Assembly: GCF_900046455.1 (NCBI RefSeq)
Contig: NZ_FCOT01000012.1
Location: 854,017 to 918,016, forward strand
Direction: 5' to 3'
Length of the DNA stretch: 64,000 bases
Origin: Cellulomonas timonensis
Lineage (GTDB): Bacteria; Actinomycetota; Actinomycetes; Actinomycetales; Cellulomonadaceae
The translations under genes and the position numbers were made by a program. Shown here piece by piece: positions 55,663-62,837 of this stretch. How positions within the stretch are numbered: position 1 is the first letter of the stretch; the number at the start of each line of letters is the position of its first letter. Under the pieces are notes generated by a model that saw nothing but the letters and a program-made list of their open reading frames with translations, ran no database searches and was not told the origin of the DNA.

Positions 55663-56319
55663 ATGGTGCCCACCGACCGGCTCGTGCTGTTCGCGCTGGC
55701 GAGCGTCTCGCTGATCCTCGTGCCCGGCCCGTCCGTGGGCTTCATCCTCGCGACGACGCTGCGGCACGGTCGCGCCTCGGGCCTCGCGGCCACCGCCGGG
55801 ATCGAGCTCGGGTACCTGGTGCATGTGCTGGCCGCCGTGGCGGGGCTGTCCGCTGTGGTGGTGGCCAGCGCGAGCATGTTCACGGCCGTGAAGGTGGTGG
55901 GCGCGGCGTGGCTCGTGTGGTTGGCGGTGCGCTCGTGGCGGGCCAGGACGCCGGGCACCCTCGCCGACACCCGGGATCCGGAGGGCGCCAAGGGCGGGGC
56001 GAGATCGGCCACGTCGGCCGGGGCGTTCCGCGCGGGCCTGCTGGTCGGCGCGCTCAACCCGAAGACTGCTGTGTTCTACCTGGCGTTCCTCCCGCAGTTC
56101 GTCGTGCCCGCGGCCGGGCCGGTGTCCCTCCAGCTCCTCACCCTGGGCCTGCTGTTCATCGCGTTGGCGTGGGTGCTCGACTCGATGTGGGCGCTCGCGG
56201 GCGGAGCAGTGCGGCGGTTCCTGCCCCGGCTGCGGATGCGGGTGCTGGACCGGGTCTCGGCGGGCGTCTACGCGGCGCTCGCGGCGGTGACCCTCACCGC
56301 CCGACGTGTCGCCGCATGA
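55663..56319 (+). CDS. LysE/RhtB-family exporter
   Basis: 218 residues, six hydrophobic segments. SLILVPGPSVGFILATTLRH holds the PGP motif of the first helix, and AGLLVGALNPKTAVFYLAFL with PQFV is the family block after the third. Exports amino acids such as homoserine/threonine or lysine in related proteins; substrate not determinable. The loop at ~105-120 is charged. ATG 55663. Confidence 0.9.
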   Translation: MVPTDRLVLFALASVSLILVPGPSVGFILATTLRHGRASGLAATAGIELGYLVHVLAAVAGLSAVVVASASMFTAVKVVGAAWLVWLAVRSWRARTPGTLADTRDPEGAKGGARSATSAGAFRAGLLVGALNPKTAVFYLAFLPQFVVPAAGPVSLQLLTLGLLFIALAWVLDSMWALAGGAVRRFLPRLRMRVLDRVSAGVYAALAAVTLTARRVAA

Positions 56320-56374
56320 TCTGACCCGGGGTGGTGACGGCTACGGTCGTGGGCAACACCGGCGAAGGAGTGCT

Positions 56375-57397
56375 GTGCCCACCGACCCTGAGGTGACCGC
56401 GCATGAGCGCGAGATCACTGAGGCCGTAAATCTGTGCTTGCCCTCGGGCCGGCTGAACCCTGCGGCAGTGGGGTGGAGCCGCCGCCCGCTGCACCGCACG
56501 GAGTTGCGCGGCTGGGGCCGGGCCAAGCGGTGGGAGTACTGGGGGGTGATGACCCCGACGCATGTCATCGGGGTGACGGTGGCGAGCCTGGACTACGCGG
56601 CGCAGCACCAGGTGTGGGTGCTCGATCGCGCGACGGGCGAGGAGATCGACCACGTCGCTGTGGTCCCGTTCGCGCGCGGCGCGGTGCTGCCAGCAAGCCT
56701 GGGACTTGGCCCCGCGAGTGCGACCGCGCGCGGGTTGGAGATCACGCTCACGGAGGGTGACAGCCGCACGCTGCTGCGCGCCCGCACCGATCGGGTCGTG
56801 GTGGACCTGCTCTCGATGCCGGAGGAGGGCCACGAGAGCCTGGGCGTCGTGGTGCCGTGGAGCGACCGCCAGTTCCAGTACACCGTGAAGGACGTCGCCC
56901 GGCCGGTGACGGGGACGCTCGTGGTGGACGGGGTGGCCCATGACGTGCCCGACGGCGCCTCGTGGGCGGTGCTCGACCATGGGCGCGGCCGGTGGCCGTA
57001 CTCGATGCGCTGGAACTGGGGCGCGGGCAGCGGCAGGGTCGACGGCGCCGTGGTGGGGGTGCAGGTGGGCGGCCGGTGGACCGACGGCACGGGCTCCACG
57101 GAGAACGCGCTGCTGCTCAATGGGCGGCTGCACAAGAACAGCGACGAGCTCGTGTGGGAGTACGACCGCGCCGACTGGCTCGCGCCGTGGCAGGTGCACG
57201 ATGCCGGACGCGAGCGCGTGGACCTGGAGTTCACGCCATTCCACGAGCGCGCCTCGCGGATGAACCTGGGCGTCGTGGCAGGTGAGACCCATCAGTGCTT
57301 CGGCACGTGGGCCGGGTGGATGAGCACGGACACGGGCGAGCGGGTGCGCGTCGACGGGATCGAGGGCTGGGCCGAGGAGGCGCGGAACCGCTGGTGA
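56375..57397 (+). CDS. DUF2804 family protein
   Basis: 340 residues from GTG 56375 with AAGGAG four bases before it. The beta-rich body carries the family pattern: RWEYWGVMTPTHVIGVTVAS, WAVLDHGRGRWPYSMRWNWG, RVDGAVVGVQVGGRWTDGTG, STENALLLNGRLHKNSDELV and GTWAGWMSTDTGE. DUF2804 proteins resemble lipocalin-like hydroxylases/isomerases of the carotenoid 1,2-hydratase fold; no enzyme activity is assigned here. Confidence 0.87.
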   Translation: MPTDPEVTAHEREITEAVNLCLPSGRLNPAAVGWSRRPLHRTELRGWGRAKRWEYWGVMTPTHVIGVTVASLDYAAQHQVWVLDRATGEEIDHVAVVPFARGAVLPASLGLGPASATARGLEITLTEGDSRTLLRARTDRVVVDLLSMPEEGHESLGVVVPWSDRQFQYTVKDVARPVTGTLVVDGVAHDVPDGASWAVLDHGRGRWPYSMRWNWGAGSGRVDGAVVGVQVGGRWTDGTGSTENALLLNGRLHKNSDELVWEYDRADWLAPWQVHDAGRERVDLEFTPFHERASRMNLGVVAGETHQCFGTWAGWMSTDTGERVRVDGIEGWAEEARNRW

Positions 57398-57772
57398 GGC
57401 GCCTGTCCGCCACGAGGTTGTCGGTCCGACCCTCGCCGACCACCTGGTAACCTCACGGCATCATGCGCTCTCAGACCCTCACCACCACGTGCCTCCGCAG
57501 CTTCTCTGCGTCGAGCGCACGGTGTTGTCGCTGACCGCTTGCTGAGCGCGGGTCGCTGAAGCGACCCCCCGGCACTCCCCCGAGGCCCTCGCCTCACCCG
57601 CCGATCCGTCGGCATCCCTGACGTCCCCGCGCGCCCTCCTCCGATGATGCGGCGCGCGCCCGTCGCACCCCCTCTCCCGTTCCTGGCATCCCCAGGGCGG
57701 AGCCCTGTCTCTATACCACTTCGGCGGCGGCGGCCGACCTTACGCGGGTAGACCCGGGGGCGCCGGCGTCAT
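57398..57772 (+). promoter_or_regulatory. Structured leader region of the peptide ABC operon
   Basis: 375 bases containing the promoter area, the leader peptide, then hairpins at 57551-57568 (GGGTCGC-TGAA-GCGACCC), a GC-rich stem around 57638-57661 (GCGCGC..GCGCGC), and 57693-57707 (CAGGGC-GGA-GCCCTG followed by TCTCTAT). The last looks like an intrinsic terminator, so the arrangement fits transcription attenuation. Confidence 0.5.
57463..57534 (+). CDS. 23-residue Cys-Cys leader peptide (sulfur attenuator type)
   Basis: ATG 57463 opens a 23-codon frame beginning MRSQTLTTTCLRSF and ending SARCCR then TGA. Actinobacterial ORFs of this kind, with a run of cysteine codons next to the stop and lying upstream of sulfur-uptake transporters, are thought to act as attenuation leaders: ribosomes stall at Cys codons when cysteine is scarce. 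A 7-bp hairpin begins 17 bases after the stop. It precedes the peptide ABC transporter by 239 bases. Confidence 0.68.
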   Translation: MRSQTLTTTCLRSFSASSARCCR

Positions 57773-59332
57773 GTGAGAGAAAAATATCATGCGCAGCACG
57801 CGACAGAGCTAGACACAGCGAGGCGATCCCGACTGTTCCCCGCCGCCGCGCTCGCCCTCGCCGCCTCCCTGGCGCTGGCGGCGTGCGGTGGTGGCTCCGG
57901 CTCCACTGACGCCGGCGGCTCCACGCCCGGCGCCTCCGAGGCCGAGATCGTCATCGGCTCGACGAACGAGCCCACCGGGCTGGTCCGCAATGTCGGCGGC
58001 TCCTCCGGCGTCTCGCAGACCATGACGCGCAACGTCTTCGAGGGCCTGACCTCGGTGGACGTCGACGGCGCCGTGATACCGACGCTGGCCGAGAGCTGGG
58101 ACGCCTCCGAGGACGGCCTGACGGTCACGTTCCACCTGCAGACCGATGTCGTGTTCCACGACGGCACGCCGTTCACCTCCGCCGATGTCGCGTGGAGCAT
58201 CTCGCAGGCCATCGCGCCGGAGTCGAAGAGCGCGCGCAAGGCCGACCTGTCGGTGATCCAGGACATCGCCACGCCCGACGACGCCACTGTGGTGCTCACA
58301 CTGGCCCGCCGCAGCCAGGCGCTGCCGTTCTACCTGGCGTCCGTCACCATCGTGAAGGATGGCGACACGGAGCTGAGCAGCGACAACGGCACCGGCCCGT
58401 ACCGGTTCGCCGAGTGGACGCAGGGCGACCACCTGACCATCGAGCGTTTCGACGACTACTGGGGCGAGCCGGCTAAGAACATCGGCGTCACGTTCCGCTT
58501 CTTCAAGGACACGACGGCGCTGAACAACGCGCTGCTCACCGGCGACCTGGACCTGGTCATCGCGGAGGACTCCCCCGACCAGCTCGTGCAGTTCGAGGGC
58601 AACCCGGACTTCACGATCACGGAGGGCACGTCGACGACCAAGCAGATCTGGACGTTCAACAACCGCATCGCGCCGTTCTCCGACGTGCGGGTGCGCCAGG
58701 CGCTGTACAAGGCGCTGGACCGCGACAAGATCCGCTCGGCCGTGTGGGACTCCTACGGCACGGTCATCGGCTCGATGGTGCCGCCCACCGACGACTGGTT
58801 CGTCGACCAGGCCGACGTGCACGCGTACGACCCGGCCGCGGCCAAGGCCCTGCTCGCCGAGGCCGGCGTCACCGACTTGGCGTTCTCCCTCGACTACGTC
58901 GCCGGGGACAACAACGAGACGATCGTGCAGCTCATCAAGGCGGACCTCGCGGCCGTGGGCGTCACGCTGAACCTCAACCCGATCGACGACGCGACCTGGT
59001 ACCAGAAGATCTACACGGACAAGGACTACGAGACCACCCTGATGGGCCACGTGAACCCGCGTGACCTGGTCTGGTACGCCAACCCCGACTTCTACTGGGG
59101 CTACAACAACGCCGACGTCCAGCAGTGGGTCGCCGACGCCGACCAGGCCGCGACGACCGACGAGCAGGTCGCGCTGCTGCGCAAGGTCAACGAGACCATC
59201 GGCCTCGAGGCGCCGTCCGCGTGGCTGTACCTCGACCCGCAGATCCGCGTGGCCCGCTCCGACATCAGCGGCTTCCCGATCGACCAGGTGACGGAGTCCT
59301 TCTACGTCGCCGACATCGTCCGGGAGGGCTGA
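57773..59332 (+). CDS. Oligopeptide-type ABC transporter substrate-binding lipoprotein (family 5)
   Basis: About 519 residues: lipoprotein signal (FPAAALALAASLALAAC), then the SBP family 5 fold with VFEGLTSVDVDGAVIPTLAE, FHLQTDVVFHDGTPFTSADV, DNGTGPYRFAEWTQGDHLTI and RVRQALYKALDRDKI. Captures peptides or related solutes (nickel, glutathione and others in this family). With the Cys leader upstream, a sulfur-containing ligand is the best guess. Start unusual: GTG 57773 has no ribosome site; ATG 57789 has GAGAG but is in another frame and stops after seven codons. Confidence 0.9.
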   Translation: MREKYHAQHATELDTARRSRLFPAAALALAASLALAACGGGSGSTDAGGSTPGASEAEIVIGSTNEPTGLVRNVGGSSGVSQTMTRNVFEGLTSVDVDGAVIPTLAESWDASEDGLTVTFHLQTDVVFHDGTPFTSADVAWSISQAIAPESKSARKADLSVIQDIATPDDATVVLTLARRSQALPFYLASVTIVKDGDTELSSDNGTGPYRFAEWTQGDHLTIERFDDYWGEPAKNIGVTFRFFKDTTALNNALLTGDLDLVIAEDSPDQLVQFEGNPDFTITEGTSTTKQIWTFNNRIAPFSDVRVRQALYKALDRDKIRSAVWDSYGTVIGSMVPPTDDWFVDQADVHAYDPAAAKALLAEAGVTDLAFSLDYVAGDNNETIVQLIKADLAAVGVTLNLNPIDDATWYQKIYTDKDYETTLMGHVNPRDLVWYANPDFYWGYNNADVQQWVADADQAATTDEQVALLRKVNETIGLEAPSAWLYLDPQIRVARSDISGFPIDQVTESFYVADIVREG

Positions 59333-59339
59333 GCTGCTG

Positions 59340-60311
59340 ATGGCCCGTCACCTGCTGCAGCGCGCGCTGGCGCTGCTGGTCTCGCTCGCGATCGCGGGCG
59401 TCGTCGTCTTCGCCGTGCTGCGGCTGCTGCCGGGCGACGCCGCCGGCACGTCGCTGGGCGTCGGGACCACGAGCGACCAGCTCGCGCAGCTCCGCAGCGA
59501 GCTCGGCACCGACCAGCCGGTCGGCGCACAGCTCTGGCAGTGGGTGACGGGCCTGGCCTCCGGCGATCTGGGCACGTCCTTCGTGTCCCGGATGCCGGTG
59601 GCCGACCTCATCGCGGCACGGCTCCCCGTCACGCTGCCGTTGAGCCTGGCGGCGTTCGTGCTGTCCGTGCTCATCTCCGTGCCGCTGGGCATCATCGCGG
59701 CGGTGCGGCGCCGTGGCGTCGTGGGCGTGGCCGTCTCCGCGATGGCCCAGCTCGGCGTCGCGGTGCCGGTGTTCTGGGTGGGCGTGATGCTCGTGTGGGT
59801 GTTCGCCCTCAAGGCGGGGGTGCTGCCCCCGGGCGGCTTCCCCCGGCAGGGGTGGTCCGACCCGGCGGCGGCGATCCGCTCGCTGACGCTCCCCGTCGTC
59901 ACCGTCGCCATCGCCATGTCGTCGGTGATGGTCCGCTACGTGCGCTCGGCGACGCTGGACGTGCTCGACCAGGACTACCTGCGCACGGCCCGTTCGCTCG
60001 GGTACAGCCGCACCCGCGCGCTCGCCCGGCATGGGCTGCGCAACGGCGCCGTGCCGGTGGTCGCGATCCTCGGCATCGAGCTGGCGACCTCGCTGCTGGG
60101 CGCCGTCGTGGTCGAGAACGTCTTCGCACTGCCCGGCCTCGGCGCGCTGCTGCTCGACTCGGTGCAGGCGCGCGACCTGCCCGTGGTGCAGGCGCTCGTG
60201 CTGATCATCACGGCCGTCGTGCTGCTCGTGAACTTCCTCATCGACCTGACGCAGCAGGCCATCGACCCGCGGCTGCGCGGCGCCGCAGCCACGAGGGGAG
60301 CGGCCCGATGA
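59340..60311 (+). CDS. ABC transporter permease, DppB type
   Basis: 323 residues, six membrane helices; begins LQRALALLVSLAIAGVVVFA with VLRLLPGD, and the cytoplasmic EAA loop reads DYLRTARSLGYSRTRALARH, followed by GLRNGAVPVV. Typical N-terminal GD..A..LG element after helix 1. Seven bases after the binding-protein gene; overlaps the next permease by ATGA. Confidence 0.93.
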   Translation: MARHLLQRALALLVSLAIAGVVVFAVLRLLPGDAAGTSLGVGTTSDQLAQLRSELGTDQPVGAQLWQWVTGLASGDLGTSFVSRMPVADLIAARLPVTLPLSLAAFVLSVLISVPLGIIAAVRRRGVVGVAVSAMAQLGVAVPVFWVGVMLVWVFALKAGVLPPGGFPRQGWSDPAAAIRSLTLPVVTVAIAMSSVMVRYVRSATLDVLDQDYLRTARSLGYSRTRALARHGLRNGAVPVVAILGIELATSLLGAVVVENVFALPGLGALLLDSVQARDLPVVQALVLIITAVVLLVNFLIDLTQQAIDPRLRGAAATRGAAR

Positions 60312-61225
60312 GCACCGACCTGACCGCCGGGGCGGCGCTGACCCCCGACGACCTGTCCGGCCCCCGGCCCGACGCCCCCGCTCCGGCCCTCGCCGCCGGT
60401 CGCGCCGCGCGCCGCCGCAGCCCGTCGCTGATCGTGGGCGCCGTCCTCGTCGGACTCGTCGCACTGGTCGGCGTGGTCGCGACGTTCTGGACCCCGTACG
60501 CCCTCGACGCCACCGGCAGCGGCCCCCGTCTCGCGGGCCCGTCCGCGGAGCACTGGGCGGGCACCGACCGGTTGGGCCGGGACCTGCTCAGCCAGCTCAT
60601 GGGCGGCGCGCAGGCCGCGATGGTCGTCGCCGTGGCCTCGGTGCTCGTCGCCACCGTGCTCGGCCTGACCCTCGGCATCCTCGCCGCCGCGACCACCCGC
60701 TGGCTCGACGTGGCCCTGGTGAACGTGGTGGACCTGCTCATCGCCTTCCCGACGCTGCTGCTCGCCATGCTGATCGTCACCGTGCGCGGCGCCTCGCTCA
60801 CCTCCGCGATCGCGGCCATCGGCATCGCCGGCTCGGCCGTCATCGCGCGGGTCACCCGGGTCAACACCGCGCGGGTGCTGCGTGAGGACTACGTGACGGC
60901 CGCGAAGGCGTCGGGCACCGGCTGGTGGGGCACCATCCGGCGGCACGTGCTGCCGAACATCAGCCCCACGCTGCTGGTGCAGGTCATGCTGCTGGCCGGC
61001 TCCGCGATCCTCGCCGAGGCGTCGTTGTCCTACCTGGGGCTCGGCGCCCCGCCGCCGCAGGCCTCCTGGGGGCGGCTGCTGCGCGAGGCACAGGCCACGA
61101 TGCTGGTGCAGCCGTGGGGCGCGATCCTGCCGGGCCTGGCCGTGGTGGCCACGGTGCTGGGCCTCAACCTGCTGGGCGACGGCCTCCGCGAACGCAACGA
61201 CCCGAACCTGAGGGGTGACCGATGA
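60308..61225 (+). CDS. ABC transporter permease, DppC type
   Basis: 305 residues: polar N-terminus, helix SLIVGAVLVGLVALVGVVAT, HWAGTDRLGRDLLSQLMGGA (the DppC signature GTDxxGRD), and EAA loop DYVTAAKASGTGWWGTIRRH with VLPN. Partner of the preceding permease. Stop overlaps the start of the first ATPase gene (ATGA). Confidence 0.94.
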   Translation: MSTDLTAGAALTPDDLSGPRPDAPAPALAAGRAARRRSPSLIVGAVLVGLVALVGVVATFWTPYALDATGSGPRLAGPSAEHWAGTDRLGRDLLSQLMGGAQAAMVVAVASVLVATVLGLTLGILAAATTRWLDVALVNVVDLLIAFPTLLLAMLIVTVRGASLTSAIAAIGIAGSAVIARVTRVNTARVLREDYVTAAKASGTGWWGTIRRHVLPNISPTLLVQVMLLAGSAILAEASLSYLGLGAPPPQASWGRLLREAQATMLVQPWGAILPGLAVVATVLGLNLLGDGLRERNDPNLRGDR

Positions 61226-62022
61226 GCCTCCTCGAAGTCCGCGACCTGACAGTCCGCACCTCCGGCGGGCGCACCCTGCTCGACTCCGTGAGCTGGTCCG
61301 TCGAGGCTGGCGGGCGGCTGGGCGTGATCGGCGAGTCCGGATCGGGCAAGTCGATGACCGCGCTGGCCGTGCTGGGCCTGCTGCCCGACGGGATGACGAC
61401 GACGGGCCAGGTGCTGCTGGACGGCGTCGACCTGCTCACGCTGCCCAGCCGCAGGCTCGACCGCATCCGCGGCGCGCAGATCGCGATGGTGTTCCAGGAG
61501 CCGCTCACGGCCCTGGACCCGCTGATGACCGTGGGCCGCCAGATCGCCGGGCCGCTGCGCCTGCACCGCGGGCTGTCCCGAGCGCAGGCCCGCGAGCAGG
61601 CGGCGGCGCTGTGCCGCATGGTGCGCCTCGACGACTACGAGCGGATCCTCGGCTCGTACCCGTGGCAGCTCTCCGGCGGGCAGCGGCAGCGCGTCGCGCT
61701 GGCGATGGCGCTCGCGTGCGAGCCGCGCGTCCTCCTAGCCGACGAGCCGACGACGGCCCTCGATGTGACGGTCCAGGCAGAGGTGCTCGACCTGCTCGAC
61801 GAGCTCGTGGACCGCACCGGCGTCACCCTCGTCTTCGTCTCCCACGACCTGCCGGTGGTCGCGCGGGTCGCGCGGGACCTGGTGGTGATGCGCGAGGGCC
61901 GGGTCGTCGAGTCCACCACCGTGGCCGACGCGTTGGCCGCCCCCGCCCACCCGTACACCCGCCAGCTCATCGACGCGGCCCGTGCCGTGACCCGGCTGCC
62001 GTTCACACAGGAGGCGATGTGA
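61222..62022 (+). CDS. ABC transporter ATP-binding protein, DppD type
   Basis: 266 residues: Walker [29 protein letters not shown], signature [15 protein letters not shown], Walker [17 protein letters not shown], switch VSHDL. The ending [10 protein letters not shown] is typical, but the C-terminal oligopeptide-ATPase extension with the Fe-S type Cys motif is absent. Overlaps both neighbours by four bases. Confidence 0.94.
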
Positions 62023-62837
62023 GCACCGCATCTGGCCTCGACACCGCGCCCGGGCCTGCGCTGGCGGCTCCGACGGGCGCCCCGCTGCTCGAGCTCGCGG
62101 GCGTCGGGCGCTCGTACGGCTCCGGGCCGCGCGCCACCACCGCGCTGGCCGGCGTGGACCTGGCCGTCCACGCCGGGCGCAGCGTCGGCATCGTCGGGGA
62201 GTCCGGCGCCGGCAAGTCCACGCTGCTGCGCCTGCTCCTCGCCCTGGACCGGCCGACCACCGGGGAGGTCCGCTACCGCGGCGAGCCGCTCGCCCACCGC
62301 AACCGGGCCGCCGTGCGCCGGTTCCGGCGCGACGTGCAGATCGTCTTCCAGGACCCGCGCTCCTCGCTGGACCCCCGGATGACCATCGGGGACGTCATCG
62401 CCGAGCCGCTGCGCTCGCTGCGTATCCCCGGCGACCGCCGCGCGCGCGTCGCCGAGGTGCTCGGCTGGGTGGGCCTGGAGCCCGACGCGGCGACCCGGTA
62501 CCCGGCGCAGTTCTCCGGCGGGCAGCGGCAGCGCATCGCCATCGCCCGCGCGCTGGCGCCGTCGCCGTCGGTGCTGGTGGGCGATGAGCCGGTCAGCGCC
62601 CTGGACGTGTCCGTGCGGGAGCAGGTGATGGACCTGCTGCGCCGCCTGCGCGCGGAGCTGGGCCTGACGCTCGTGCTGGTCAGCCACGACATCGCCGTGG
62701 TCGGCCAGCTCTGTGAGGACACCGTCGTGCTGCACGACGGCCGCGTCGTCGAGGCCGGGACCACCGAGCAGGTGCTCACCCGCCCCCAGGACCCGTACAC
62801 CCAGCGGCTGCTCACAGCCGTGCCGCGCCTTCCCTGA
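62019..62837 (+). CDS. ABC transporter ATP-binding protein, DppF type
   Basis: 272 residues: Walker [30 protein letters not shown], signature [15 protein letters not shown], Walker [16 protein letters not shown], switch VSHDI, and [17 protein letters not shown] at the end. GTG 62019 has GGAGG five bases upstream within the end of the preceding gene. Completes the five-gene importer. Confidence 0.94.

Follow-up and report, generated by a model that had tools for sequence, protein, structure and literature searches.

A conserved leader ORF ending in cysteine codons lies upstream of a family 5 ABC importer operon in Cellulomonas timonensis and its relatives

The window analysed here, a stretch of 64,000 nucleotides from the Cellulomonas timonensis genome, carries an SBP_bac_5-type (family 5) importer encoded by five genes (57773-62837). 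The operon stands alone, with no sulfur genes seen in its neighbourhood, and the genes flanking it differ between genera. Upstream of the importer genes, the plus strand contains a 23-codon ORF encoding the peptide MRSQTLTTTCLRSFSASSARCCR; its final three sense codons, TGT TGT CGC, are followed by a stop (Cys-Cys-Arg-stop). This is exactly the arrangement described in an earlier sequence-only reading of this DNA, which had proposed a leader peptide, cysteine-responsive attenuation by three hairpins behind it and the uptake of a sulfur compound by the importer. The host is close to Cellulomonas cellasea: its binding protein and the one from strain ET82 share 99% identity. The features of the locus are as follows:

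57448-57453, plus strand: candidate -10 box TAACCT (TAnnnT), 9 nt before the leader ATG
57463-57534, plus strand: poly-Cys leader ORF, probably leaderless, conserved in orthologues and above chance in the shuffle test
57523-57528, plus strand: tandem Cys codons TGT TGT, proposed stall site
57535-57705, plus strand: C-rich untranslated spacer, candidate Rho-loading region, invariant against ET82 except for a 1-nt indel at 57667
57550-57567, plus strand: strongest local hairpin GGGTCGC-TGAA-GCGACCC (7 perfect pairs, -12.4 kcal/mol), with no T run behind it
57706-57824, plus strand: 119-nt strain-specific segment in place of the 28 nt holding ET82's native Shine-Dalgarno region and ATG
57773-59332, plus strand: SBP_bac_5 substrate-binding lipoprotein, start GTG 57773
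59340-60311, plus strand: permease 1 (BPD_transp_1, NikB/OppB-like)
60308-61225, plus strand: permease 2 (BPD_transp_1, NikC/OppC-like)
61222-62022, plus strand: ATPase 1 (ABC_tran, OppD/NikD-like)
62019-62837, plus strand: ATPase 2 (ABC_tran, OppF/NikE-like)

In order to trace the leader in other genomes, binding-protein orthologues were searched in relatives and named genomes. Within the Cellulomonadaceae, the family of the window strain, the leader was present upstream of the binding protein in all orthologues having upstream DNA (25/25; locus L155 was left out as too short), so that the leader-peptide claim withstood the comparison that could have overturned it. Of these leaders, 24/25 end in a Cys-Cys cluster, and where scored, the distance from the start of the Cys-Cys leader to the binding-protein match is 249 to 564 nt. 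When the upstream DNA of each locus was shuffled, no more than 0.75% of the trials produced an ORF of this kind. The peptide sequences vary by genus, as illustrated by Oerskovia (MFLDLSAPTRTPSTGRHGSTSAARCCRCL), Sanguibacter (MRRDTTVLSHVSPLAQPRHVGAGCCCRCSR), Jonesia (MYANTVQKSHAVVRVTATTCCCCCC) and Timonella (MHNNTFPVINTVPRVAGTVCCRCC), and the terminal Cys cluster is common to all compared. Most relatives have more terminal Cys codons than the window leader, which has just two. On this comparative evidence, the leader ORF is real and under selection.

Outside the family, Scrofimicrobium has the leader, and so does locus L024 from a different family of the order. It was absent upstream of homologues at 48-51% identity (0/8) and also missing at loci L079, L080 and L082. 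The remaining family member, L151 (G936), has the leader MRTVLVAPHAARPVLAARASCRG with a single Cys and the ending Ser-Cys-Arg-Gly, while its close relative L152 has Cys-Cys; the single-Cys form may be decaying or tuned. Searching nine of the leader peptides against the NCBIfam profiles assigned them to no family even at E 10, and an Rfam search of the whole window at gathering score returned only three tRNAs, all away from the leader region.

In the window and in most relatives, the leader ATG is preceded at a distance of 7-10 nt by a TAnnnT box, which in most orthologues is followed by a conserved CATC-ATG. No Shine-Dalgarno sequence was evident before the leader. This spacing of TAnnnT and ATG with no evident Shine-Dalgarno sequence is the arrangement of mycobacterial leaderless mRNAs (PMC4633059), and, judging by where the box lies, the mRNA that carries the leader is probably leaderless or nearly so.

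Cysteine leaders lacking obvious terminators were predicted before actinobacterial cys operons in 2005 (PMC1262725), and mycobacterial poly-Cys leaders, which precede cysA2, Rv0485 and nirA, were later seen by ribosome profiling (Shell 2015, PMC4633059). Canestrari 2020, as summarised by the citing papers PMC9094748, PMC9031893 and PMC13236596, reported mycobacterial Cys leaders to be cysteine-responsive attenuators. Like the mycobacterial ORFs, the leader found here is a short, probably leaderless ORF with a C-terminal cluster of Cys codons heading an operon; whereas those precede cysA2, Rv0485 and nirA, the target here is a family 5 ABC importer behind a long C-rich spacer. With the leaders of PMC1262725 it shares Cys codons near the stop, the lack of conserved terminator hairpins and a pyrimidine-rich spacer, and it differs from them in the target gene and in the actinobacterial families concerned.

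The same genome contains a further poly-Cys leader, MVHSSPCVPQRHLRGDAAACCRALCCLGACPRSA, 96 nt before a sulfite reductase-cysH-cysD operon (L093 2745-2849; G000:C13:876744-876848), and Cys-cluster leaders also precede sulfite reductase in several relatives. A pattern search of the genome for further CC-ending leaders gave mostly coding-like matches. The cysteine-responsive control put forward in the sequence-only reading is well supported by analogy with the published leaders (PMC4633059, PMC1262725, and Canestrari 2020 via PMC9031893 and PMC13236596) and by the leader of the sulfite reductase/cysHD operon. The ORF before the importer is short, carries a C-terminal Cys cluster and keeps its position ahead of orthologous genes, as is characteristic of actinobacterial poly-Cys leaders; it is a genuine conserved cysteine leader of this known kind and very probably acts as a switch that responds to cysteine shortage. 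We found no description of this leader-importer pair in the literature searched, subscription journals being mostly outside its reach.

Next, we compared the locus with that of C. cellasea ET82. Across leader and spacer (57463-57705), none of 243 positions is substituted and a single 1-nt indel separates the two strains, although about nine substitutions would be expected at the average divergence of 3.8% over 14 kb. Just upstream of the leader, 7/63 positions differ. Because of this contrast between the invariant segment and the DNA immediately before it, the spacer itself is probably under constraint. The conservation covers the whole leader DNA, and an excess of synonymous changes in the leader was not seen between close relatives (pS 0.047, pN 0.063). 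Overall, the transporter operon has diverged less than the DNA on either side of it, its genes differing by only 1.3-3.5% from those of ET82, and part of the conservation of leader and spacer may reflect operon history rather than spacer constraint alone. The upstream genes for a DUF2804 protein (56306-57397) and a LysE-type exporter (55675-56319) are roughly 3-6x more diverged from ET82 than the genes of the binding protein and first permease.

On the sense strand, the untranslated region after the leader stop is C-rich and G-poor, as would suit a Rho-dependent attenuator. The mean C/(C+G) of the spacers is 0.618 in 10 lineages compared to 0.534 upstream of 15 homologues that have no leader (Mann-Whitney P = 0.0009), with one value per lineage, lineages that are not fully independent and control regions that partly overlap coding DNA. 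A spacer so unusually rich in C fits Rho-dependent termination, which the authors of PMC1262725 had suggested for actinobacterial cysteine leaders.

Taken together, the locus can be read as a cysteine-sensing upstream ORF that would control a sulfur-compound importer through a Rho-type readout shielded by a stalled ribosome, a model to which we give an even chance of being correct. With ample cysteine, ribosomes would complete the leader and be released at its stop; the long C-rich spacer, left untranslated, would then make the transcript prone to early termination, most likely through Rho. A shortage of charged Cys-tRNA would instead hold a ribosome on the terminal Cys codons, where it would cover the stop together with the first part of the spacer, so that RNA polymerase could continue into the importer operon. 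The cell would in this way make the products of all five genes and take up a sulfur-containing compound. What we infer for this locus is the stalling, the Rho step and the substrate, and the direction of the response, with the importer up when cysteine is short, would follow the precedents. The tnaC leader of Escherichia coli stalls ribosomes through its nascent peptide and tryptophan. Unlike tnaC, the leader described here would stall by lack of charged Cys-tRNA. Common to both would be the masking of a Rho-loading region by a ribosome stalled at the end of the leader (tnaC as cited in PMC1262725).

The main rival is translation attenuation, in which the spacer RNA would hide the Shine-Dalgarno sequence of the binding protein until a ribosome stalled on the Cys codons frees it. 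Such control is described for the cys genes of M. smegmatis (as cited in PMC13236596), and the native sequence of ET82 offers CCGUUCC as a pairing partner for the GGACGG in the Shine-Dalgarno region. However, across 20 loci a crude duplex test scored the pairing between Shine-Dalgarno region and spacer no higher than with shuffled spacers (mean z = 0.0), the spacers are long (122-356 nt) and their sequences are not conserved between genera, and the native Shine-Dalgarno region is gone in the window strain. We therefore consider translation attenuation possible, at clearly less than even probability.

The loss of the native start region also raises the possibility that the leader persists in the window strain while its control has been broken or rewired, which is compatible with the other explanations and which we regard as somewhat unlikely. 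Compared to ET82, the native start region GGACGGACCATGAG, with its ribosome-binding site and ATG, has been replaced by the 119-nt segment. The only in-frame start candidate found in the window strain is GTG 57773, which is preceded by CGGGGGCGCCGGCGTCAT, a doubtful Shine-Dalgarno region, and which gives the protein a longer N-terminus before the intact lipobox. The segment occurs as a single copy in the genome and has weak GC-repeat-like matches in the family; a repeat finder detected no terminal repeats, and neither a plasmid match nor a source was found, so that nothing points to a mobile element. Control in the window strain may be altered by the lost start region. Against a broken control speak the intact reading frame and lipobox and the low divergence of the operon genes from ET82, and an assembly error at 57706-57824 may also be involved.

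Classical trp-type attenuation by an intrinsic terminator and antiterminator hairpins, as originally proposed for the three hairpins of this region, is improbable. GC-rich hairpins can indeed be drawn, notably that at 57550-57567 and others at 57582-57595, 57601-57612, 57629-57657 and 57695-57705, and several relatives show intra-leader hairpins that include Cys codons. However, the hairpins of the region are at the level expected by chance for sequence of 71-74% GC: the fold z-score was -1.0 for the window and -1.2 for the native ET82 version, with values between -3.9 and +1.0 at other loci. An intrinsic terminator scan found no terminator-like site on the plus strand, no T run stands behind any of the hairpins, and the consensus structure in the alignment of all lineages was almost nil (-0.3 kcal/mol). 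The hairpins within the leaders were likewise not convincing, since synonymous recodings fold about as stably (mean z = -0.2; -1.2 against dinucleotide shuffles). Thus, the hairpins of the earlier proposal exist on paper, whereas their role as terminator and antiterminator is not supported by a terminator T run or by conserved alternative hairpins.

A chance ORF without function is scarcely credible and was rejected at the comparative-sequence level: an ORF of 23 codons by itself says little, and close relatives show no surplus of synonymous over non-synonymous changes, but the ORF, its terminal Cys codons, the promoter spacing and the position before the same gene are kept across many genera, and both the shuffle test and the absence of substitutions against ET82 argue for function.

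Since intrinsic termination is unsupported, Shine-Dalgarno sequestration is at chance level and the spacers are C-rich, we prefer the Rho-type readout with modest confidence. In its favour we counted the conservation of the ORF and its Cys codons, the promoter-like box, the constraint and C-richness of the spacer and the second poly-Cys leader on a sulfate-assimilation operon; against it we counted the translation attenuation of M. smegmatis, the partly coding controls of the C-richness comparison, the presence of only two Cys codons and the lost native start region.

With regard to the substrate, the best solved relative of the binding protein by profile is AgaA (6hlx, E = 1.4e-53), followed by Lmo0135/CtaP (5isu, E = 2.5e-50), and the GsiB glutathione-binding family also matches, far below its cut-off. 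AgaA is not known as a binder of sulfur compounds. CtaP of Listeria monocytogenes is, like the protein of this importer, a family 5 binding protein and has been linked to cysteine transport; the relationship is distant, and AgaA scores better. The uptake of a sulfur compound, as suggested in the sequence-only reading, is plausible mainly because of the Cys leader. More tentative, and in our view doubtful as a whole, is the wider picture in which the Cellulomonadaceae and their relatives would possess a dedicated importer for sulfur compounds (e.g. glutathione or cysteinyl peptides) under a Rho-read cysteine leader, with a recent 119-nt replacement of the leader region's end in the window strain.

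It is difficult to tell from sequence what a family 5 importer takes up, and a conserved cysteine sensor suggests a testable substrate class for an uncharacterised importer present in at least 25 species-level genomes. The leader also widens the cysteine-leader concept to targets other than operons for cys biosynthesis, and with such long C-rich spacers the old proposal of a role for Rho in Actinobacteria can be put directly to the test.

Some leaders show structures of their own. At L005 and L078, and also at L026, the poly-Cys codons (TGTTGT) can form base pairs with Asn/Thr codons (AACAAC) early in the leader, and the resulting hairpin inside the leader holds the Cys codons in its 3' arm. 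This hairpin is strongest in L005 (P = 0.003 against synonymous recodings). Inspected by eye, the spacer of L005 (G021) contains GGGCAACCGCCC followed by ATAATTTTT, which, unlike the spacers of its GC-rich relatives, resembles a weak intrinsic terminator.
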